Both the position numbers and the translations under genes were made by a program. A stretch of 64,000 nucleotides of DNA from Beverwykella pulmonaria. Its lineage: Eukaryota > Ascomycota > Dothideomycetes > Pleosporales > Melanommataceae. Position 1 is the stretch's first letter. Every line of letters starts with the position of its first letter. A model generated the notes under the pieces. That model was given only the letters and a program-made list of their open reading frames with translations. It was not told where the DNA came from and searched no databases. Where the stretch lies: positions 3,935,068 to 3,999,067 of the forward strand of contig BCHH01000001.1 of assembly GCA_001599595.1 (NCBI GenBank), given 5' to 3'. Shown piece after piece: positions 37,003-54,653 of this stretch.

Positions 37003-39812
37003 TCAAGGCGGCACAACAAACCCCGGGACCTCAAACTTACTCTCTCCACTACCCACTTCCTTTACCTCCGTGCTTCCTGGCAACGTAACCTGCGCCTTTG
37101 CGTTCGGCGGTACATTAACCGTCATCTTAAAGCCGTCGGTGACCTCCCACGTGACATTGACCCAGCCATACGCACTCATATATGCTGACTTCGCCGACGT
37201 AATCCCACCACCCGGCTCAGGTGCAACCTTGATCACTTTCCACCCGGGAGCTCCAGGCGCAAGCCCCCCGATCTTCTGGTGCATCCAGTCGGCCACACTG
37301 CCAAACGCATAGTGGTTGAAGCTCGTCATGGAGCCTGGGTTGACAGTGCCGTCAGGGAGAAGAGAGTCCCAGCGCTCCCAAGTGGTGGTCGCACCCATGG
37401 AGACGGAGTACAGCCACGAGGGGACGGTGGTGCTCATCAGCATCTTGTAGAAATGGCTCGTCGATCCCGTTTCTGTGAGTGCGAAGCCCAGCTGCTGTGT
37501 CCCAGCAAACCCAGTCCCTACCTGGAACTGGTTCTGCTCGATGATGCCGCGCAGCGTGTTCGAAGCCCCTGTCTTGCTTTCAGGGGTTGTGTAGATGCCG
37601 AAGCGCAGACTGAGCGCGAGCGCTGTCTGCGTCACGTTGGCGATGCCGCCAGCGTTCACGTACGGGTTTATCCATGCTTCCTGGAACGCGGGGATGAGCA
37701 CCTCCTCGCGCTGCTTGCGGTAGATTTCTTGCTGGTCTTTGTCTTCGAGGGCTTCGTTCATTTGCGAGAGGAAGTTCGTCATCTGGATGAGATATGCGTC
37801 GGCGACAAGGATGCTATGGGTAGTTGCTGCGCCAGCATTCTCAGGTGGAGCTTTCGGGTCTAACCAGTCTCCGAATTGGAAAGTGTCGCGTCGCCATAGC
37901 CCGGCTTCGTTGCGTGGAATGCCCTTGTCGATCCAGGCTTTTGCGCCGGGAAGCTGTTCTTTCAGCATGACTTTGTCACCGGTGGTTTGGTAGAGGGCCC
38001 AGGGGTTGCCAACGACGACGTCGCCCCAAACGGCTGTAGGCTGGCGCACGCGGCCGCGATCTGTGTCGTCCGGGTCATCGGTGGGGATCACGTAGGGTGG
38101 GACCATGTAGTCACCCCGAGACTGCTCAGACCAGCCGTCCTTGAGCCAGCCTCGCCAGAAGCCTGCGGCATCAAATAGGTAGTTCGCTGTTGGGATGAAG
38201 GCATGCGCATCGCCTGTCCATCCCAGTCGCTCATCACGTTGCGGGCAGTCGGTTGGCACACCGAGGACTAAGGGTGGGGGGGGCGAAGTCAGTGTAGTTC
38301 TTCAAAGTAGGGGAGAAGGTATTAGGGTACTTCAGCCATATCTTGCCTCTTGTCTAAGTAGATAACTCACCCCGAAGGGGCATTCAATCACTTCGTTATC
38401 TCATTAACTCTAAGGCAAGACATGAACTTGGCACCCCTGGGTTACGTACAGTTACCCTTCATGGACCAGATGACATTGTTGTGAAATTGGTTGAGCATAG
38501 AATTCGAGGTCTCGAAGTATCCTGTTCGCTCCATGTCGCTATGAACAACAAGGGCGGTGACTGCATCGCCGTTCAGAGGAGTTTCAGCTGGCCATCCCGT
38601 AATCTGGACATATCGAAATCCGTGGTACGTGAACTTGGGCTCCCAGGTGATAGGACCTTTGCCGTCGAGAGTAAGAGTATCCGTGGCTTTGGCGGAACGC
38701 AGGGGCCGAGTCGCAACTTCGCCATTCTCCATCACCTCAGTGTGAACCATGGTGATGACCGTGCCGTCAGGCCCATCGACGGTGAGCCTTAGCCACCCGA
38801 CGAGATTTTGGCCAAAATCTAGGACTGTCTTCCCAGATTGTGATTGAAAGACATTCACAGGTTTGACCTCTTCGTGTCTTTTGATCGGCGTTCCATCAGG
38901 AGGCGATGGTTTCCCCTGGGAGAAGTTCGTGATCTTAGTAGCAAGCCATGTGCTTGCGTCGAATCCAGGAGAAGACCACCCTTCTTGTCTCAGTGTGGCG
39001 TTGTACATCTCTCCATCATAGATCTCAGAGCTGATGATGGGGCCTGTGCTGGCCTTCCACGTAGCATCGCTAATTACGGTCTGCTTTTTGCCATCTTTAT
39101 CTGTAGTAACGAGCACAGCCAGCAGTCCGAGAGTATCTCCGTAGAGGTTCCGCTTCCGTGCTCCAAAACCGAAGCGTCCTGAGAACCAGCCTTCGCCGAC
39201 GGTGACGCCGATCGTGTTTTCTCCGGATGCGATAAGGTCTGTGACGTCGTAGGTATCGTATACGTGTCTATAGTTGTACGCCTGGTATCCAGGGGCGAGC
39301 ACATGGTCTCCGACGCGTTTTCCGTTGATCTCGGCTTCGTAGAGCCCGAGTGCCGTAATGTAAAGTCGGGCAGACGCAATCTCTCCGGCGGTGAAGTCCT
39401 TCCTGAACATAACAGGTTGTTTGGGTCCGTCGACTTCAGTGGGCCGATCTGCTGCAATAGTGATTGCTCCAGCCCAGTCGTCGGCGGTCAAAATCGAGGT
39501 CTCAACAGTATAAGTATCCGACCAATCTGTCGACGGCTGGCCGTCCTTTCCATGGGCTCGAGCTCGGACGGATGCTGCTTCTGCGCTGCCGAGTGGTTTG
39601 TCCGGCCATGGTATCAGTATAGAATCGGTAGAGTTAACGTTGAAAACGTTAGGTACGCCATCCGGGCCTCGTGTGATCTCGACGTCGTAAGCAGTTTGCT
39701 CCCAGTTGACTGCATCACCAGAGAACTTCCAGGATATGCGTGGTTCTGTCTCGGCGATGCCAAATGCTGGATGATGGTGTTCAAAAGAAATTTGATGGAG
39801 TAACACGGACAT
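37003..39812 (-). CDS. alpha-L-rhamnosidase (GH78), intracellular-type
   Basis: Exon 1 38450-39812 and exon 2 37003-38267 with a 182-nt intron (GTACGT...CTTAG); 875 residues. N-terminal beta-domains (VLLHQISFEHHHPAFGIAE; LYITALGLYEAEINGKRVGD; YNYRHVYDTYDVTD; GEGWFSGRFGFG), then the catalytic (alpha/alpha)6 region beginning GVPTDCPQRDERLGWTGDAHAF around residue 457-478. Its conserved acidic residues are candidates for substrate binding and catalysis. The C-terminal domain (SFNHYAFGSVADWMHQKIGGL, YGWVNVTWEV) completes the family layout. There is no signal peptide, so it probably acts inside the cell on rhamnosides taken up from plant flavonoids or pectin fragments. Confidence 0.93.
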
Positions 39813-42403
39813 GTTGATCTAGCGTACTCTTTCCCTCTCTGTGTGGAGAGAAATCAGTGTGGTTTTGAGGCTTCTGTGAGCAGTTCCATAGCCACAATTA
39901 ACGTTGTTATTCTTGTTTCATGCGAAGTGTAGATGCTGGCCTGAAATGGCTCAAATAGGAAGTACTCGGCTCAAGATGAGGCGAGCCATTTCGGAAACCT
40001 TGCCGGACTTAGTTGATCGCCAACGCTGAACACCGGAAGGGGCCTTATTAATCTTGGCGGTGAAAATCGATGCGCCGGGGAAATATAGGGAGGGGTTCTA
40101 TTGTTCTCGTGATACTTAGCTTAATTATGATGTGGCGAGTAGGTGAAATATGGCCCCGAACTTACATTGATGACCTTTGGTCTTCGTGGGCCATACGGAG
40201 AGGTGAAGAATTGAAAAAAAAAAAACTCACCCTTTTACATTTCATATTCAAGTGTCATATATTTGATCAGATTTAGCGGTTGTTTATTTAAATTGACGTG
40301 GGTCTTCTCTCAATCCCTGCCAAGAAGCGCTACGGGAAGCTCACTTATTGTTATATGATCGAGCGGGGTGTTGAAGGCCAACGGAGGATTAATAGGCCGA
40401 GCACGCAGTAGATATTCTCCTCATCATCAGAGGTTAAAGTTTGAACCCCTTACACCCACTTGCAGTTTGCGGAGGTCAATCGTAGTCCGGTCATCAGAAG
40501 TAGGGATGCTGTGTTTGACAAGGTACGAATCCTTGCATCATCTAACTTACTTTTAGCAGTGGCATCTTGTCTAAGCAGCTTTGCAATGCATGCCTAAACT
40601 GATTCCTTATAGGTATATTATCGCGCCATTTTGTACTTGAATAAACCTTTGAAGCTTCGGTTTGGAGACTTACTGGTATTCCACCCAGAGTTGAGAGGCT
40701 TAGTATCCTAGAGCAGTGGCGGATAGGTGGGTCCTTAGGCCCACCACAGTCCCGGTAATTAGATAAACTCTCCAGCCAACAGAATCCCGCTTTCCCTACT
40801 TACTACGCTTACCCTCGTCCTGCCTTAATTTCCTAACCCAACTCCGCCACTCTCGTGTGATATTTATGTATTGCAACGCTTGTCCTTAATTGGTGAACTG
40901 GTATTACGACTGCTGGTAACAAACCACTATGCGAACCGTTTCAACTGCAAACCATCCTACTAGGGGATGTATTTTCAGGCAGCTACAACTTTCCCTATAT
41001 GAGCTCTAGCTGTTGTTGTTCCATCATATTCATTTCCGCCTGAGATCTGCACTGTCAAAAGTTATTCTTGGACGAGAGACTGCCTCCTGATACATACACT
41101 GGAGAGGATTTCCAAATGAGGAGCGTATTCGCGCGACGATGAGACTCATTACTTCGAATATGCCATATTCCCTTGTTCGGTTCTACGATCATGTTAACCA
41201 TTAAGAGATTATCGTAGCCTCAAGAGCTCTCGTACTGGATAGCGCCCGGGTAGTCCAACTCATTTAGTATTTCGTACCCACCATGCGGGTTCGTACTCAA
41301 TAGAGAGGCAGACGGTTTGTAAATTCTGTATTGTGGACACGGCGACTAATCGCACTTAATCACCTTATCTGAAGCATCCCTTTCACTTCTCTGGTGTTTA
41401 TAAAAGATTTCAGTATTTTGAAGAGTGAATTGATATGGCCAAAAGAGTAAAATGGGCATGCGTCTGAGTATGTTCTTGCTTTCCGGGATGCGCTGTTTGT
41501 ATAGCTGCAACTGCATAGAATCACGGATCGAATGTCACCTGCAGAAACAAGACTGTAACGAACAAGAGAAGCAAAGATTGATAGTAAATTGTAAGATGTA
41601 TGCTATAGAAGAAATGATACAGCAAGTGGGAAACTTAAAAAGAACAAAAAGGAAGTGTCACTCCGTGACAGTCCGCTACTAGTCGAAGACAATCCTTAGA
41701 CTGGCCAAAATCTGGAACAATGGTCATCGCAGATTCCAGCCAAGCCCCTGGTTAGTGGCCTGCATTCGAACATTTGGGCTTATTAATATTTCTTTAAAAA
41801 CTGCTGGTAGCTGGACTTGGACAACAGTGTCATATTTAACCTACAGGCTAAATATACGTTACAGAACTAATTCCTAAATCTCCTCCCATGAAGCGAACCG
41901 CTTTGAGGGGGGCAGGCAGCGGCACGTGGCTTAGTCCTATATTTTCCCAAGCAGACAGTAGATTACATAGTGCGCCGTAGCGAAGAGCTACTTTGCTCGA
42001 ATCTACCTCAGGCACGGGTTGAAGACTTAAGTACATGGTGCAGGGAACGCTTCTTGGTTTCTCCGTCAGCTGCTTGCTTCGTCATCAATCAACGCGGCAT
42101 ATATATGTGCATCCGAACACCATGCCTATTCATGAAGAATCGAGCATCAACACAATCATCATCACCAGGGGTCGACAATCCAACCCCAACGAGATCACGA
42201 ATATTTCTTCTGTCTTTCATTGCACATCTCTCTTTCATTCGTTTGGTAGCTAGATACAGCGAAATTGAAACAGTCTACTACCAAACCTCCCTTGATGCTC
42301 CCCCTCTTTCAGTGCATTGCTGCTTCGGACATCACATGGCTGCGAGTCGCCTTCCACCCTTGTGATTTTTCTACATCACACCCTTTCCTCCACCGCAAGT
42401 CCC
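39813..42403. other. long gene-poor stretch
   Basis: The GH78 promoter lies at its left. The rest is AT-rich with only short frames (for example 41452-41682) lacking recognisable domains. Poly-A near 40216-40226. No RNA gene or clean repeat structure was seen. Some decayed coding DNA may be present near 41050-41380, but it could not be assigned. Confidence 0.35.
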
Positions 42404-43360
42404 TTACAAGTCTGTTGCACCACGATACTCGAAGACGCGAGACTGAGATTCCTCCTCCTTGTTCTTCTCAACAATGAAATCTACGATATTGTCCCGATAT
42501 CTCTCGACATATCCGAGATGAACGGGGATTGAATCTCCCCTATCGCAAAATAGATCATTTTCGTCACAGTATGACTGCCACATTTCACCTAGGCGTCCAC
42601 AAGCTGCAAACTGCTGGCGCGGAAATATCTAAAGCGATAGCTTCATTAGCTTCATTCTATACCGTATATAAGGGTGGATTTAGTTAACATACTCCTCCAT
42701 TCGTACTGTTCCCAGCATGCCATGGTAGATCTCTAACGTTCGTGGGGTCTCCAAGCTGGATAATAGCGCGGACTACGTTGAAGGTCAACTATGGTAATTT
42801 CTTGCGGGGAGGACGGCCAAGTTACGCTGAAATGTGGATCCGTAATTAACTGGATTAGACGGTGGGAATATAATGCTGCCACCTCCACAAATCCCGGTAC
42901 CTAGGACGTGGGCTCCCTGAAATTGGAATAGTCAGTGCCAGTGAGACCTGGAGTGATCCTAATCCAATCCACTTACCTGAGAATAGCCCATAATAACAAT
43001 TCCAGTGTCAGGACACTTGTCACTGAACGCCTCGAGCTCGGTTTTGAACTTGCTGACACCCTCCATCATCGAAGCTACGTATTCGGGGAAGTTGTACTTG
43101 GGTTGTCCATCAACAATGGTGATACCATTAGCTGGATAGTCGATTGCCATGGAGGTAGAGTCGGGTATTTTTTTCATGACTTTATCAACAATGTCTTTCA
43201 TGGCACCGAAACCTGGTTTCTCCAGGGTGCCACGCACGCCAATGATGTGCACACCTTTAGGGCAATCATCATCCGTCTCGAAGACGGACTGGCGATGATG
43301 TGGGCTGGCAGTAGTCTGTAGCACGAAAGGGAGCAACGCGACAAAGGCTCTGAGAAACAT
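42404..43360 (-). CDS. secreted cutinase family esterase (CE5)
   Basis: Four exons: 42977-43360, 42851-42916, 42693-42788, 42404-42628; introns of 60, 62 and 64 nt; 256 residues. Signal peptide 1-18; first Cys in CPKGVHIIGVRGT; nucleophile Ser127 in GYSQ|G, split by intron 1; ICGGG (exon 2); QLGDPTNV (exon 3); CDENDLFC with the probable catalytic Asp207 and His219 in VHLGY (exon 4). The acidic C-terminal extension is not typical. Introns 1 and 3 have good donors; intron 2 has a weak donor GTTAAT, and without that splice the frame ends early. CE5 enzymes cleave cutin or acetyl-xylan outside the cell. Confidence 0.82.
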
Positions 43361-44149
43361 GACTATCAGACTTGAGGTAACTTTGATAATTGTTTTGATG
43401 ACTGAGTAGACAAAGAATGTCTGATGGATTTCCTCGAGCAAACAGACGAGGGACAGGATTTTATAGTACACAAGCGTAGCCGGCGAGTTGATATCGGCTG
43501 AGGGGGAATAGTCTAAATCCCTGCTTTTGACCTCGACTTTCGGGAAGTAACGTATCCCTGTCATACATTTGCTCTCAAAAAGTAGCGTGGATGCAAGACT
43601 ATTGGGGGATTGGCACTAAACGATTTTATACCCAAAATGATAGTGTCCGGGAAGATCTTAGATCTGGAGCTTTGGCCATGCCGCAGTAAGTGCACGACGG
43701 AAATCCGATCCGAGGCTGCTGCGAATACAAGGAGGACTACCGACCAGGCTCTCCCCGTCGACACCACCAGAAAGTGCGCGTAAAAGTCAGAACAAGTCCC
43801 TTAGAACTCAGACTGTGTTTACAATTTTGGTGGCGTTGACAGGGAGAGGGCCCGTTTAGGAGACCGCCTGGTACGGTACAATGTAGTGTGTGTAGTTCTG
43901 AGCCGTACCGAGTTACCGAGCATTGGAGGACGATGTGGATCCCTTGGCCGATCAGCCGTAAAATCGTACCTTTAGCGGGGCACTAGCAAATTTCATTTTC
44001 AGCCACTACGGACGAAGATGAGATGTAGTCGGAGGACAAAAGTCTCCTAGCATGGATTTCTTGGCCGAAACCATAAAATCGACTCCTACACAACTGTGAA
44101 TAAATAAATCGCCCTGTATTATAAATATGCACAATTTTGCCCTGCGCAA
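43361..44149. other. cutinase promoter and repeat-like DNA
   Basis: Left part is the cutinase upstream region. Two diverged direct copies of GGAGGAC...TGGAT..CTTGGCCGA...TAAAATCG occur at about 43926 and 44032, perhaps the outer end of the Tc1-like relic. Confidence 0.35.
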
Positions 44150-45407: not shown

Positions 45408-47696
45408 ATGCCTTTGACCTCTCCCCTCTCCTCCACCCCCCCTCCCGCCATGGAAGCCTCGGGGACGGCCCCGCCAACGGCAGCGACGACGACCCTTACG
45501 ACCCTCACGGCCCCTCCCTTCCCTACCAGCGCTGCGGAGCGCCATGCGGCCCTTGACGTTGAGCTCTTCGCGCAGGGCGCGCGCGCGCTTGCGCAGGCGC
45601 GTACAACGCGGCCTAAGAACACAAACAAGACGTACGATCCAAAGCAGAAGGAGTAGCAGGAATTCTGCGCTGAGAAGGGATTTGAAGATGGCGAGCTCGT
45701 GCGCGAAAACAAGCTAATCTAGTTTCTAAATAAGCGCGTCCTAGACCAGGAGGTTCGGACCTCGCGGTACAAGAAGCAGGATCGCACAACTATAGACGGC
45801 GAACCAGTCCAGCAGACGCTAGGAGTCAGCGCGGTCAAGTTGTACGTAGCCACCATTGTTGACCTGTGGTCCTTCCAAAAGAGCAAGGGCATAAACCTGT
45901 ATCCAACCCCGCGCGGAGAGGGCCTAAACAGCCTGCTAAGGGCTCGCCAGCGCACTGAGCACAAGCAGCAGCAGCTTAAGTTTGCTGACAGGGCCGCGGG
46001 GACGCTGCAGGACAGCTACACTAAGGCGAAGATAATTAATGCCGTGCGGTTCTGCTGGGAGGGCTACCGCCAGGGGAAGCAGCGGCGGCAGCAGTCAAGG
46101 CAGTCAATAGAGCCGTACCTGCGCACCGCCACTAACTTCCTGCTCACCCACAACATGCTGCTGAGGAGCAAGGCGCGCCTAGAAGCTGAACTCCCTAACT
46201 TCTTTACAGTCCCGCTGGCAGACAAAGGCCCAACGCCCTGCTACCCAATAATTATAATTATAGACAACAGCAAGACAAACCTAATGGGGCGGCTAGAGTA
46301 CGGAGCTGTTATAAGGCACCAAAATCCGCTGCTCTGCACTATGGCTCACACCACTTTCTACCTCTTCTACCGCTGGAACGTTACAGGCGAGCCGCCTCCT
46401 AGCTTCTGTCAGCGCGAGCTGTGGTACAACCTGCACCTAGTCAAGGGGGAGCATGCAGCAAAGAAGATGGCGTATAACACGCAGCTAGACTAGATTAACA
46501 AGATGTTTGCTGGAGCAAACATTATGTCGCTAAAGAAAACACACGCAGGCCAATCGCAAGGGGCAAAGCACGCTAAGCTTAAGGGCGTTAGTGAGGGCCA
46601 GATCTGCCATGCGGGACAGTGGAATAGTAACGCCCTAACAAACTGCTATCTTACCTACCTCCCGCGCAAGTTTATGCGGAGCATGGCTGGCTTTAACCTG
46701 TCCGCGCAGGGTAACTTCTACCTGCCACAGGCAAAGGTGCTGCCTCCGCAATCACTTGAGCAGGCCATGTGGCCCTTTGTTGACAAATCACTGGCGTAGT
46801 TTAACTCGTACGCGGACGACAAGAAGCAGCAGAGTAATAAGGCAATAGAGGACCGCGAAGACCTTGCGGCTTAGGGCTTCCTACGTTTACTGCAGCAGCT
46901 CTGCATTATCCTCCTTCAAGACTCTGTAATTATAAGACAGGAGTTCCCTGCGCATCCAATCTGGGCTGACCCTATCTTCGCCCAAGCTAACTACCTAGCG
47001 TTTGCAAAGGACGTGGAGCTCTCACTACTAGACGTAGAGGAGCCTAAAGAAGTGCAGATTCAGAAGACGCTGCCTGCTATTGCTGAACGCCTTAGCATCC
47101 TGCACCAGAGCCTTGCGCGAGACGTCAGCAACTAGGGCGCGGAAACAAGAGAGCAGCTCAACAGCATTAACATACGGCTAGGAGACTTGCTTGAGGGCCG
47201 CATATCGCTGACTCTACATCCTACGCGCCGTACAATTATGGCGGCTTCTAGCTCTACCACGCCTGCTTCTGCTGCAACAGCGGTGAGGTCCTTCCACTCT
47301 GCATTAGCCTCCCCTTCTCCCGCGGCCACTCCCTCACTGCAGGAGCCGCCATCACCGCTATCACCACCACCACCGCCGCCGCCGCCGCTGTACGTCCTCT
47401 CCCGCGCAGTGGCAACCATCCCGCAGCTGTGGAGGGAGTGGACAGTAGGCCTAGCAGGCGGCCCGTCTGTGCAAGGACTAGAGGATCTGTACAGGCCGCG
47501 CTGGCGTCAGAAGCACAGCGAGCAGGTAATCTACAGACAGCAGAAGGTTATTATTGACGAGATTCAAAGACAGCAGGCACAGGGCATTAGTACAGGCGCG
47601 GCAGTGGAGGAAGTAGAGCTTGTTCGGCAGCAGGCTAAATTGTCGCTCTATCAGCTGTACAAGCTGCTTAATAGGCAGAAAAAGTGTACTTTGTAG
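45408..47696 (+). pseudogene. Crypton-like tyrosine recombinase, six amber stops
   Basis: One unbroken phase of 763 codons from ATG 45408 to TAG 47694, interrupted only by TAG at 45654, 45720, 46491, 46797, 46872 and 47133. Order: Ser/Thr/Pro-rich start; helical N-terminal domain; the recombinase core (LRSKARLEAELPNFF, KTNLMGRLEYGAV, NPLLCTMAHTTFYLFYRW, LKKTHAGQSQGAKHAKLKGV, ALTNCYLTYLPRKF); an acidic helical region; poly-Pro (about 47360-47395); and a GCR1-like C-terminal domain (GLEDLYRPRWR, KLSLYQLYKLLNRQ). This layout is that of fungal Crypton transposons. Gln stands where Arg is expected in the HxxR-like segment (HAGQW). The changes match RIP. Confidence 0.8.
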
Positions 47697-48725: not shown

Positions 48726-50168
48726 ATGCCTCGCAGACTCGCGAACGACCTACAGCGAATTGCCCTTGCGCACGCGATAGGTTTCCTCAGTTACCCCAGC
48801 AATTCAACGGCCGAACCCTACCTAAACTACATCACCAATCGACACATCGGCCGAGGAACGTTAGAAGAATACTTGGGCCTTTTCTTACGCATAATAGAGC
48901 ATTTCAAGCAAGACGGAGGTAGCGAGGGTCGACAACCCGCGTCGGACAGCATACAGGCGCTTCTCGATAAATTGGTTGCGTCGCAGGATGAGGAGCTATT
49001 CTCGGACACAAAGGCGGGGAGCAATATGAGGAAAGAAGACGTTGAGGACACTGTCATGTATATCATAGGAATCTGGACAATGCTACTGAGTTCGTTCGTC
49101 CAACTGCCCAACGGGATCCGAAAAGTAGTAACGGCATATACAATCCGAGCTCATAGCAGAGGTATTACAAAAGCTGCATGCGATGAAAATCTTGCGGGAT
49201 TGCTGAAGGGAAGTGGTCTGCTTCCAGCGCCTGTATGGGCTCAGACTCAAGTAGGTCAGCCCGAAGACGACATTGTACGAACAGCGAAGAAGTTGGTCGC
49301 ATTGCTCTCTGGCGAGAATGGCGAGAATCCACACTTGCATCTCGGAAGCTCTCTTGGCAATTCGCTATTTGAGAGCTTTGAAGCAAAGACACCTGGAACT
49401 CAAATATCATACAGCTCTTTGGATAACATGGACTCCCTTGAATCACTTTCGATAAAGGCAACGCGTCTGAACGCGTTTACCCTCTGTACTTTGGGTGCTG
49501 TGGAGATAGCCTGGACACACAACATCTCCCGGCATATGCAACTTTCTCGGCACGACGGACGATTTGTTCTCGATATTTTTGCACTTCCGTGTGTATTCGA
49601 CGCGACATCTTTGACCTCGCCTGCAGTCGGCATCTCCTCCGAACTTGCACAAGAGATCAAAGAATCCTACTGCATCCTTTTTAACGCCTGGCCTGATACC
49701 CCTCTACACGCCAAGATTGGTCGCTTTCTTGGAATTCGGAAGTTCTGTTGGTGCTGGGCTTGTTCCTCGTATCGATTCCGGAAGGATGTCCTCTCAAAGC
49801 TTCGAAAATCGACCTTACGGAGCACGAAAAGGAGTCGAGACGCAATTCGGAGGAGCGAGTTTGACCCACTGTTAGCTGAGCTCATGAATAATAATGAATC
49901 TTCCGATTGGACACATGACCTGTTTCCCTGTCTTTGGTCACGGATCACGATGTTGGAAGAGCATCTCGAAAAGGCGAAACCGTGGAGCATCTGGATTCTG
50001 TTCCGTGATCGTCGAGACACGTTGCAATTCTGGACTTTTTTGTAAGTTAACATTTGTGATTCATTTGTTCCCTTATTAACTAGTTCAAGATTTGCAACTG
50101 TCATGCTTGTGATGACACTTCTGCAAGTTGCACTCGGCATCCTCCAAGTCGCGGGCTCCTTTCGATGA
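48726..50168 (+). CDS. tail-anchored orphan-family protein
   Basis: Exon 1 48726-50041, intron 50042-50083 (42 nt, GTAAGT...CTAG), exon 2 50084-50168; 466 residues. Exon 2 adds a single hydrophobic C-terminal segment (RFATVMLVMTLLQVALGILQVAG). Recognisable blocks: HAIGFLSYPSN, NISRHMQLSRHDGRFVLDIFALPCVF, IKESYCILFNAW, a Cys-rich FCWCWACSS and RDRRDTLQFWTF before the anchor. I have the impression of a common Pezizomycotina family of unnamed proteins with this ending, but no function is known to me. Without the short intron the anchor is lost, so splicing could switch membrane targeting. It converges with the chimeric gene at 50470. Confidence 0.8.
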
Positions 50169-50469: not shown

Positions 50470-53400
50470 TCAACCCACTCCATACTCCCGTTTCAGAGCA
50501 TCTGGCACCTGAAATGCTCCATAAAAGGCAACTCTTCCCAGCTTCAATCTCTTTTCCAACGCACCACCCTCCATCTCAAAGTTCTGCACATGACCGCTCT
50601 TTTGCACAAAGCTCTGGAACCCTACAACACCTGGTCCCGTCGTCCCATCCTCGCGCACGCCATCCGCATAGAGTGCGATTCCACTATATCCGTTGGGAGG
50701 GTCGAAGTCTGGATAGACACGGTAAAGAAGGGCGCGCGAAACAAGATCCTTCCAGGTGGACACATCGTGGTCTTTGGTGGGTTTTGCGGATGCCATTTGA
50801 TTGAGAAAAATTCCTTCTCCAACAACCAGGACTTCCGACGGGCGATTTGTCTTTAGAGTTTTTGCTGCTCGATGGTTCTCCGTATCCCCAAGGATCTTGA
50901 CTGCGCTGCTTTGTTGTCGTAGGCTATTCCAGCTCTCTTTTGATAGCCACCCAAGATCGGGGATGGGGGATTGGATGTCCTTGGCTGACGATGTATTGGT
51001 CGGCTTGATGAGGGTGAGGTCGTACATGAAGCCGTTGGGGTAGATTTCGGCTTCGGGATCGAAGGACTTCTCAATCGTTCCAACCTAGTGAAGTAGTCAG
51101 AAACAGTTCTCCAGTAACTTTCATTTCATCCGCTCCGAGCGAATATTAGGCTATGCTGCATTTCGTAGAACAGGAGAGGAAAACAATATTACTCTCAGGT
51201 CAACAGTATCAAGCCAGCCTTGTAAAATGCTACTCTTTCCGCCTGAAGTAACTTTGCCTCATCGCAGCATTTCTGCAACATCCTCTTGTATCCACAAGAA
51301 GCATGTTTTCCTAGTTGCGGAAAACTCACATTCGCTTGAAGCCGACGGAATAAACTTACCTTTTCATTCCCCGCCCAAATCTCTACATGCTCATTCCAAT
51401 CCCCCTCCAACTTCTCCAACCCCTTCCTCCGCCCAAAAATGGCTGCACGATGACTCTTCGCTAGCACAGCTTCGGTAACCACATGCGACGACATGACTAA
51501 ATACGGCTCCCCATCTTTAATAACTTTCGCTCCAATCCTCCCCGCGAACTTCTCTTTCCTGTGTGAAGATTTGGCACGCGCTTCGATGAAGTCGTTGAGT
51601 TGCAATGGCGGAGTGAGGAGCGTGGTTGAATGGCGACTGGAGGAAGGGCGGAAAAATGACGTCGACGACGAAGGGGTGGAAAGGGAGGTTGGTGAGGATA
51701 GGACGGAGGACATCGATTTCATAGTCTCGGTTTTGCTTGCTAGTGTTCCTGCACTAGGGAACATTGTTGGTTCCATGTTCTGCGCTATGTAGCACACTTT
51801 CAGCCCGCCGTATTTGTGTGGCAGATGAGATGCCGCCCAGCCTGTATCGAATTCCTCTCCTACGATGATCTGTAGTACACCATTTACTAGCAAGTAGAAC
51901 CCGAGGCTTCCTGCGAACGTGAGAAACAGATCTCGGATTACCTCGAGAGGAACTTCGGCTGTGCAGTCTATTGGCGCAGAGGGTCGAGGGTCAGGAGGTG
52001 GATTTACACCAGCAAGGGGCGGCCATGTGTACTCTACGGGTAGGACGACAGGAGCTCTGGCGATAGTGAGCGGGAAGAATTTTGGTGTGTCAACGTCAAG
52101 TGGAGTGCAAGTCCAACAACTGCGAGGGGAAGAATTAGTATTTATTGGGATAGAGTGGTAATCGACGTCCCACATCCAAGACTCTGGGAGCTGGGTTTGG
52201 ATATCTTTCCAGTCTGTGGTATCCAGGTTGGTGTAGGTGGGAAAGAGGTGGGCGGGCTCGAGATCTTCGGATCCTGTTTCTAGGTCTTGAAATTCTGAGA
52301 GTAAGTCTAGATCGTTGGATGATTGGTCGGCTCTGTTTCCTTCGTCATCAGAAGCTTTTTCACCGCCCTGCTCCGATTCTGGGGGGGAAATTGGTTTAAT
52401 AGCAACATGTTCAACAACGACTGCGGCCATATCGCTCAGAATAGGGTACCGGAAGATGTCGGGAAGTGTGACGCGGAATCCACGTTGGCGAACTTGAGAG
52501 ACCAGGCTCAGCGCTGTAAAGGAGTTGCCGCCGAGGTGGATGAAGTTACTATTTTTGGTGATTGTATGATTATCTACCCCAAATACCCGGCTGAAAACTG
52601 TCTGTAACAGTTGTTCCTTGGCTGTTTGTGGCTCATCCTTTGAATTGGTTTCGTCTACGTCAGGATTCTTTGCGTTGGCTGTTATCGCTTGAAAGTTGTT
52701 TCTAATAATCATATCTTCGTCGTCTTCCAAATCGTCTTCCAAATTTGTTTCGATTACAAACGTCGCCCTTCTCTCTATAGAATCATCTTCACCTGATGAC
52801 TCTTCTGTCAATGCCGGCATATCGTTTGTGCGATCAACCCATCTCTTCTTCATGAGCTTTCTTGTCCGACCTTTGCCTTCGATATACTCCGTGTCGTCAG
52901 TGTCGCTGCCAATACTCGTCGCAACACTTGTGCCACTTCGATACGAGCCAGAGCTCCAGCTCTGCTTTGCTTGCCAGGACGAGGGCAGAGGCTCTGTGGC
53001 CGAGGTTGGGACTTGGTTGTCAGGTGCCGGAGTGTCGACAACTATTGCGGCTTGAGGAAGAGCTTCACGCATATTCTGCGTATCCCATGGGTCGTGGGAA
53101 GGCATAACTGGCGCTACATCGAGAGTGAAAGGATTTTCTTGACTGGTGCTGATATGAGGTTGGGCGAAGGGGTTGTCTTGGATGTAAGATAAGTGATGGC
53201 CTGTATATTGACCTCTTGTTGTTATCTGCCCGATAAGAGACTTTTCCTGTTCCAATGTAGACAGTGAATTTTTCTGCAAATCATCTTTCTGAGAAGAAGA
53301 GTTCACTTCTGTGAAAACCGCAGATGAATGATCCTGCGTCTCGCGTTCTGAGACAGCAACATAGAACGAGACCTGGTCGCCAATCATCAAGACGCCTGGC

Positions 53401-54653
53401 TCGAGCTCCACCACAGGAGGCTGGCTAGATCCTATGACAGATCCTGGGGAATCTTTTGCCCGATCTTCCTGATCTTTTGTGCTTAGGAGAGACGGTATAG
53501 GAGATGGCTGACACCACACCCTAGCATTGGCGCAACGGGAGCACGTTGGCTGGGATCTGTCGCATTTAATCTTTCTGCGTTTGCATCTTGCACAGGCAGA
53601 AGCCATCTGGGGCAGAGTACTATTCGATGGTTGGTTGTCCTGTTTTTTTGTCTCTGGGAGATGAAACGCAGAGAACTGTGGTTCCTTTCCTGGATACTGA
53701 CACATTCTATCCAATATGGCGCAAGTGGCGCATCTTGGGTAGGCTTGATCACATTTGATCCTTTTATATCTGCATTCAAAACAGGAGAACATACTCACGC
53801 GGCGGGTACTAGCGGGCTTTTTCGGAGCAGTTTCCTCAGTTGGGCGGCCAATAGCAGCGTCGAGTCGAGAAGTTGAAGGTAACTCGCCGATATCGTCTTT
53901 ATCAGCCTGAGAATGTATGGATTCAAGACTTAGCGAAGGTTTCGATATCGTGACTTTACCCGCGGCAAGAGTGGCCCCCGGTTGTTCCTCCTGCTGTTTA
54001 GAACCTTCAGGCCTTTGCATCTCCGCTTCGCTTCGCTTCGTTGTGGCTTGCATTTCGATTTCAGTCTCTGCCAAGTTTCTCTCCTTTTCTGGGGCCAGAC
54101 GCTGTTGCGTAATGGGAAGAGATTGTCGAACCCGATCGGTAGAGCTCTCATGTTTCCCATCAGCATCAAGTTTCAGGTCCCCTTGTACAACATCTTCCAT
54201 GATATCTTCAAGGGCGAATGAGGAGGAGTCCGGATGAAGTAGTGACGTATAACTAAATGTATCCAGTATACCCAAATGTTCCATCTGTTGATCCAGGTAA
54301 TCTAGCGTCTTATCATCTCGCAGCTCTTGCTCATCACCGCTGATACTTTGGGGTTGGGCAATCCGCTGGGCCAACTCTGCAGCATCAATTTTATACGACT
54401 CGCCCTCCGCATCCTCTTCTTCAGTTGACACTTCGCCAGCCCTCCTCTCCAGATCTTCGAGTCTCTTCTTCAATTTCATTCGATAGTTCCGTTGCGCAAT
54501 CCGATTCTCTATTCTCCGGCGCTCAGCCACATCGGTAATAGCCTGCCAATCTGTTTGAACCCAGTCGTTCTCAGAGGCTTGAACATGAAAATTATTATGT
54601 ATATCCTCACGGGTATCTCCGGTTTGTGAGTTCAAGCCGGTGGGATCTGCCAT
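50470..54653 (-). CDS. chimeric bZIP - two Zn2Cys6 - carrier domain - trypsin-like protein
   Basis: Exon 1 51360-54653 (1098 codons without a stop), 275-nt intron (GTAAGT...CACTAG), exon 2 50470-51084; 1302 residues. Residues 44-73 are a bZIP-like basic region (RRRIENRIAQRNYRMKLKKR). Two Zn2Cys6 clusters follow, each CX2CX6CX6CX2CX6C: Cys291-318 and Cys354-381. About 676-750 is a phosphopantetheine carrier domain (LGGNSFTALSL, Ser711). Residues about 905-931 are hydrophobic. The C-terminal part looks trypsin-like: His1057 in MSSHVV, Asp1120 in MYDLTLI, Ser1232 in GYSGIAL. Linkers are acidic and Ser/Thr-rich. No adenylation or condensation domain. The combination is unfamiliar to me; a gene-merger artefact is unlikely up to residue 1098 because there is no intron. 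Intron borders are less certain. Confidence 0.8.

Follow-up and report, generated by a model that had tools for sequence, protein, structure and literature searches.

Gene structure of the locus and the encoded protein

The window analysed here, a 64,000-nucleotide stretch of the Beverwykella pulmonaria genome, carries on its minus strand (54653-50470) a putative sensor-protease gene of two exons and a single intron. Exon 1 (51360..54653, minus strand) encodes residues 1-1098 in 1098 codons without a stop. It is followed by a 275-nucleotide intron with GT-AG ends (51085..51359, minus strand) and by exon 2 (50470..51084, minus strand), which adds residues 1099-1302 in 204 codons and the stop codon, for a product of 1302 residues. 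The spliced translation and a Pfam scan (E values up to 1) confirmed the parts of this one protein: a basic region and a pair of Zn2Cys6 clusters, followed by a carrier domain and by a C-terminal half that is conserved among relatives and contains the triad His1057/Asp1120/Ser1232. The stop-free exon, the single intron and the union of all these parts in one protein had been proposed in an earlier note made from the DNA sequence alone, and were borne out. Across 172 relatives, described below, the junction of the two exons is gapped in 17, coincides with the end of the gene call in 43 and falls under other outcomes in 23; in the remaining 89 it is uninterrupted, which supports the splice.

A conserved C-terminal module with a predicted chymotrypsin fold

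The C-terminal ~500 residues, hereafter the module, begin with a front subdomain, from which a linker rich in Ser and Thr leads to a predicted chymotrypsin-fold domain; its His-Asp-Ser triad is intact. The exon-1 part of the module lies at 51360..52253 (minus strand; residues 801-1098; His1057 codon 51483-51485) and the exon-2 part at 50473..51084 (minus strand; Asp1120 codon 51019-51021, Ser1232 codon 50683-50685). The earlier note had described His, Asp and Ser motifs in trypsin order, all downstream of the intron; the order holds, but His1057 is encoded in exon 1 and only Asp1120 and Ser1232 in exon 2. The protease part of the spliced protein matched no Pfam family, and was recognised despite this from the conservation of the triad and the predicted fold of relatives. 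His is present in 163 of the 165 relatives covered at that position, Asp in 110 of 111 and Ser in 106 of 107. The complete triad was seen in 97 of the 172 relatives, most of the others being records that end before Asp and Ser. The order His-Asp-Ser characteristic of clan PA is found in the window protein and in nearly all covered relatives, and the two-barrel fold of that clan appears in predicted models of two relatives, P0014 and P0058. The module is thus predicted to be a chymotrypsin-fold protease, and the trypsin-fold-like domain that had been suspected gains support from both the triad and the models.

Two family assignments were considered and neither is made here. A first model (predicted local distance difference test, pLDDT, of 58) ranked the plant protein NARROW LEAF 1 (NAL1) at the top, but a better model gave no separation of NAL1 from other proteases (VIA-align), and membership is not claimed; the likeness to NAL1 is a fold match of the predicted models of relatives only, with no sequence match in the Protein Data Bank (PDB). 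In Foldseek searches the better model reached low query-normalised template modelling scores of 0.20-0.29, with a complement convertase in the top row. Family S64 was rejected on the absence of PF08192 from the spliced protein; a search of the fungus's own genome for S64 also returned nothing, but its controls were equally silent, making this weak evidence. Module profiles found no match among PDB sequences, and an NCBIfam scan of relative P0058 gave none.

One module behind many kinds of front

A protein search with residues 380-1302, limited to hits no shorter than about 716 residues, gave 53 proteins whose lengths range over 726-1615 residues. These match the C-terminal part of the window protein (about 790-1302, whole or partial) at 40-74% identity, with shorter or weaker matches to the front. 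A module profile search matched 176 proteins, 120 of them listed, and a search with the module paralogue on contig C14 (see below) gave 17 proteins, including some from Ilyonectria, Fusarium, Apiospora, Madurella and Diaporthe. Together these amount to at least 172 distinct relatives, many of them metagenome proteins; the named ones belong to the Dothideomycetes and Sordariomycetes. The closest named relative among the matches listed, P0054, is 80% identical; its gene model, of 551 residues, lacks the greater part of the front. Pfam scans covered 51 of the 53 long relatives (all but P0029 and P0045), 4 of 103 from the module profile and 15 of 16 from the C14 search (all but P0171).

The domains ahead of the module differ widely. 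In a joint scan of 37 relatives, counted over the best 25 of 34 matched families at E values up to 0.01, with some matches under their cut-offs, PHD_5 occurred in 12 relatives, bZIP_1 in nine, HLH in seven and PHD in six, followed by Zn_clus, TPR and ubiquitin (two each) and NDT80, GATA and Pkinase (one each). Further fronts comprise HET (102 bits), tandem PH_FT, GATA plus Zn_clus, SH3, EF-hands, ankyrin repeats, a kinase with FHA, Clr5, HeLo (175 bits) with WD40, and TPR with DUF7779. The full triad stands behind ankyrin (P0160), kinase (P0163, P0165), Clr5 (P0166), tandem PH (P0034) and partial kinase (P0041) fronts. Fungal NOD-like receptor (NLR) and allorecognition proteins typically carry domains such as HeLo, HET, WD40, TPR and ankyrin (PMC4986451, PMC9815663).

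Nor is the fusion in the window an isolated accident. A bZIP-like region and a pair of Zn2Cys6 clusters also occur together with the beginning of the module in P0035, P0038 and P0039, and P0038 and P0039 have GATA as well; the gene calls of all three end at the intron, so that only the His of the triad is seen. Separate genes in all relatives, the pattern that the earlier note had named as counting against a genuine fusion, were not observed: 95 of the 161 proteins in which the module start can be located have at least 200 residues ahead of it. The median front in the 53 long relatives, a set confined by the length limit of about 716 residues, is 652 residues. The stronger view of the family, judged by comparison of its sequences, is the reverse of the one first taken: what stays constant is the protease module, and a front that resembles DNA-binding proteins is one of several kinds. 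Since other members carry WD40, TPR, ankyrin, EF-hand or kinase fronts, release of a DNA-binding part is not the general job of the family.

Three module genes were found in the B. pulmonaria genome, in the window and on contigs C11 and C14. Their fronts differ, and the C11 and C14 copies both have His, Asp and Ser. The C14 gene (locus L024, 1876-5889) encodes an EF-hand protein (EF-hand_1, 34.5 bits) that splicing joins in frame to the module. A similar EF-hand architecture is seen in P0158 from Ilyonectria, and the two together suggest that one branch of the family senses calcium. Nothing over the Pfam cut-offs was found in the C11 front and its upstream open stretches; a weak RPW8 match in an upstream stretch (18.2 bits against a cut-off of 30.4) was not used. 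A search of viral contigs for relatives of the module and of the partner described next confirmed none.

A predicted membrane-protein gene near each module gene found

Convergent with the protease gene lies a second gene, here called the partner, with exon 1 at 48726..50041 (plus strand) and, after an inferred 42-nucleotide intron, exon 2 at 50084..50168 (plus strand). Its product of 466 amino acids ends in a hydrophobic, tail-anchor-like segment (Kyte-Doolittle 2.06 over 19 residues) that is a predicted membrane helix. Relatives of the partner in the genome were found only on C11 and C14, where a like hydrophobic segment follows the same motif. In the alignment of the three copies a CxCxxCSS cluster and, ahead of the membrane segment, PWxxWxxFxDRRDxxxFWTF are invariant. 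A degenerate pattern of the juxtamembrane motif has exactly three occurrences in the genome at up to one mismatch, and its reversed control none; within the 172 module relatives the motif was not found.

The three module genes found in the genome lie near the only three partner copies found, an arrangement newly noted here. The two genes are convergent and ~0.3 kb apart in the window, convergent and ~1 kb apart on C11, and ~16 kb apart with other open reading frames (ORFs) between them on C14. In 2,000,000 random placements all three pairs never came within 21 kb, and two or more did so in 40; given the window pair, the chance of the other two pairings is ~1.7e-6 under uniform placement, which is a simple model. 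The linkage could equally stem from a single duplicated block holding the two genes. Across the three pairs of copies the identities of module and partner match (41.8/40.3%, 33.4/32.3% and 34.1/32.8%); this parallel divergence would be expected had the two genes been duplicated together but, with three pairs, is no more than suggestive.

Composition of the front in the window protein

The bZIP-like basic region at residues 44-80 (54414..54524, minus strand) scores 19.4 bits for bZIP_1, under the cut-off of 27.6, and the match spans profile positions 7-43 of 64, that is, a basic region with little zipper. Of the bZIP region first described, then, the basic part stands and the leucine zipper that would complete it is largely missing. 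The two canonical Zn2Cys6 clusters are well founded: Zn_clus reaches 45.3 bits against a cut-off of 21 in two stretches, at residues 291-318 (53700..53783, minus strand) and 354-381 (53511..53594, minus strand), with the CX2CX6CX6CX2CX6C spacing. Both are retained in P0035, P0038 and P0039, where the surrounding stretches are only 25-34% identical to the window protein; the clusters are therefore probably under selection. The Pfam scan found no fungal-specific middle homology domain, which is common, not constant, in Zn2Cys6 regulators, and no NACHT, NB-ARC, S8 or CHAT domain in the window protein.

Residues 484-536 (53046..53204, minus strand) share 64% identity over 55 columns with an unrelated disordered host protein encoded on contig C9. 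A search of the 172 relatives for this stretch gave one short match at an E value of 0.29 and nothing convincing. Given the likeness to the C9 protein without a convincing counterpart among relatives, the stretch is a probable captured host fragment, specific to this lineage.

The carrier (PP-binding) domain at residues 682-745 (52419..52610, minus strand) scores 39.3 bits against a cut-off of 20.8, so that the carrier match expected around residue 711 was found, and a whole-genome six-frame search also recovered it (C1:3987486-3987677, 45.2 bits). Its attachment residue Ser711 (codon 52521-52523) is present, and no adenylation or condensation domain accompanies it in the Pfam scan, as the earlier note had observed. 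Among the relatives, carrier domains are found in P0106 (41.3 bits), P0112 (39.1 bits), more weakly in P0108 (22.8 bits) and, in degenerate form, in P0042; searching with a profile of the five family copies added nothing further, leaving 4 of 172 relatives besides the window protein. The carrier domain is thus real and recurs in a few members, and its modification site is, as judged from these copies, no constant feature.

That carrier was the basis of the proposal that a 4'-phosphopantetheine on Ser711, possibly acylated, controls the protein and ties it to secondary metabolism. The domain is well above its cut-off in the window protein, P0106 and P0112, and all three keep the GG[ND]S attachment site. 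Against this, two of the five sites are faulty, that of P0108 being broken by an insertion and that of P0042 having no serine; the protein is without the partner domains named above; and the family-built profile matches so few relatives. With the domain recognisable in 4 of 172 relatives and degenerate sites in two of the five copies, the core mechanism is unlikely to be acylation; we have rejected it as the main explanation and regard a carrier switch as very improbable.

Proposed mechanism and alternative readings

The observations to be explained are the fusion, the conservation of the triad, the fold predicted for relatives, the diversity of fronts and, within the genome, the pairing of genes. 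From these we tentatively favour, at slightly less than even confidence, a modular sensor-protease in which an exchangeable front is the input, the C-terminal module the output and the membrane-anchored partner the substrate or executor of an immunity-type response. In the window protein the basic region, the two zinc clusters, the captured host fragment and the carrier domain would form the input, setting the location of the protease or what is sensed and holding it inactive, with the ~500-residue module as output. The protease would be freed when the front perceives a disturbance of the nucleus or of a host protein, or when the front is lost, as happens in yeast Ssy5; it would then cut its convergent membrane-helix neighbour, as a substrate or a membrane-bound executor, and the cleavage would lead to an allorecognition- or immunity-type response. 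That a degradable N-terminal part can restrain such a protease is indicated by Ssy5, which cleaves itself, has its prodomain degraded and then cuts Stp1 and Stp2 (PMC12958826). A more doubtful proposition is that the fronts act as integrated baits: parts of nuclear and metabolic proteins from the fungus itself, namely DNA-binding domains, a carrier domain and a short host fragment, would be fused before a chymotrypsin-fold protease, and through them an attack on host targets, or a mismatch in them, would be sensed and the membrane-anchored partner fired.

Several observations weigh against a sensor-protease of this kind. Its catalytic activity, the inhibition by the front, the cleavage of the partner and the immune role are inferred. 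The HeLo plus WD40 (P0170-P0172) and TPR (P0169) records are incomplete, with the module seen only up to His; the TPR plus ubiquitin pair (P0051, P0052) and the EF-hand protein P0158 have no aligned Ser; the HET model P0040 is without the His stretch, and the kinase protein P0167 aligns a Lys at the Ser position. These gaps in the immune-type records may be either faults of gene models or real losses. Fewer than 60 residues precede the module in 32 of 161 relatives, so that the front may be dispensable. The partner is no more than a candidate substrate or executor: its profile had no match in PDB, and its exon 1, scanned without the last exon, had no Pfam match over cut-off and no NCBIfam match. 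On C14 the two genes are separated by 16 kb that hold other ORFs, and the pairing is known from one genome only. Finally, many fronts are of nuclear type and also fit a chromatin or transcription role, which keeps two DNA-linked alternatives alive.

One of these, in which a self-cut frees the N-terminal DNA-binding part to regulate genes, perhaps those of secondary metabolism, we consider unlikely. Self-cleavage releasing the N-terminal part may occur, the Zn2Cys6 clusters are intact in the window protein, P0035, P0038 and P0039 within regions of 25-34% identity, and there are fungal precedents for a PA-clan protease coupled in trans to a transcription factor (Ssy5 with Stp1/Stp2, SltB with SltA). 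The WD40, TPR, ankyrin, EF-hand and kinase fronts are, however, not known DNA binders, the middle homology domain is unmatched and most of the bZIP zipper is missing. In the other, the front would bring the trypsin-fold protease to chromatin, where nuclear proteins would be removed or processed; human FAM111A, a trypsin-fold protease in a DNA-linked nuclear protein, is a precedent (PMC9240642). The module has no PDB sequence match, fold matches at the Z observed are common to many chymotrypsin-fold proteases, and cytosolic-type fronts and a membrane partner would be left unexplained; we judge this DNA-tethered protease rather improbable. The front of FAM111A also differs from that of the window protein.

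It might also be that the module alone matters and the front is a neutral mosaic from gene fusion and fragment capture. Residues 556-780 are only about 30% identical to P0112, against 68% for the module; the front contains a host fragment without a convincing match in relatives; an NDC10_II-matching remnant lies a few kb off; and some relatives have almost no front. Yet the zinc-cluster cysteines are intact amid diverged flanks, known domains recur as fronts, and long fronts are usual in the 53 long relatives within the length limit of that search, so that we hold a neutral front to be improbable, although less so than the carrier switch.

Comparison with known systems

The proposed modular sensor-protease has its nearest likeness in the sensors associated with fungal gasdermins. 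Control of these gasdermins falls largely to multidomain proteases that are encoded in clusters with them and carry WD40, ANK or TPR (PMC12881547, PMC10989679). HET-Q2-like sensors, which combine WD40, TPR or ANK with S8 or CHAT, are likewise multidomain sensor-protease fusions with the same kinds of front and a second gene nearby. In the present family, however, the protease is predicted to have a chymotrypsin fold rather than being S8 or CHAT (other protease types go unnamed in those reviews), it sits C-terminally, and the partner, with its C-terminal membrane helix, has no recognised relation to gasdermins by sequence. Front domains are also common to fungal NLR and allorecognition proteins (HeLo, HET, WD40, TPR, ANK) and members of this family, but the window protein is without a nucleotide-binding domain, and the twelve N-terminal classes of Dyrka 2014 include S8 and no trypsin-type protease (PMC4986451).

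Ssy5 (S64) resembles the window protein in being a fungal protease of clan PA preceded by a regulatory N-terminal part; it differs in that the window protein has no S64 profile match and in that Ssy5 proteases are described as single-domain (PMC5567314). SltB of Aspergillus nidulans has a long N-terminal pseudokinase part and a C-terminal protease-like domain, and some module relatives have a kinase front; SltB signals to and acts on the factor SltA (PMC4557415). Relative to the fungal sensor-proteases in the literature searched, protease class, orientation, fronts and partner differ, while the logic appears related. No description of the module family was found among the papers listed by that search, which reached few subscription papers and so is no proof of absence.

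A single odd architecture thereby becomes a testable family, with one protease-like module, many fronts and a repeated genomic partner, and with several fronts common to fungal cell-death and allorecognition proteins. Should the partner be the target, the two genes would form a concrete system for laboratory testing. Integrated baits, if real, would give fungi an equivalent of the integrated decoys in plant immune receptors, with a protease replacing the NLR. The family also raises the question of whether copies of a fungus's own nuclear proteins, once captured, serve it as sensors.

Neighbouring sequences

The NDC10_II-matching ORF piece lies at 45723-46490 (102 bits), a few kb from the gene pair, and may derive from a Crypton-type element. 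An open piece at 42962-43615 has a partial cutinase match (49.4 bits), and an alpha-L-rhamnosidase piece at 38445-39818 (Bac_rhamnosid_N, 214 bits) adjoins a further open piece at 37006-38301.

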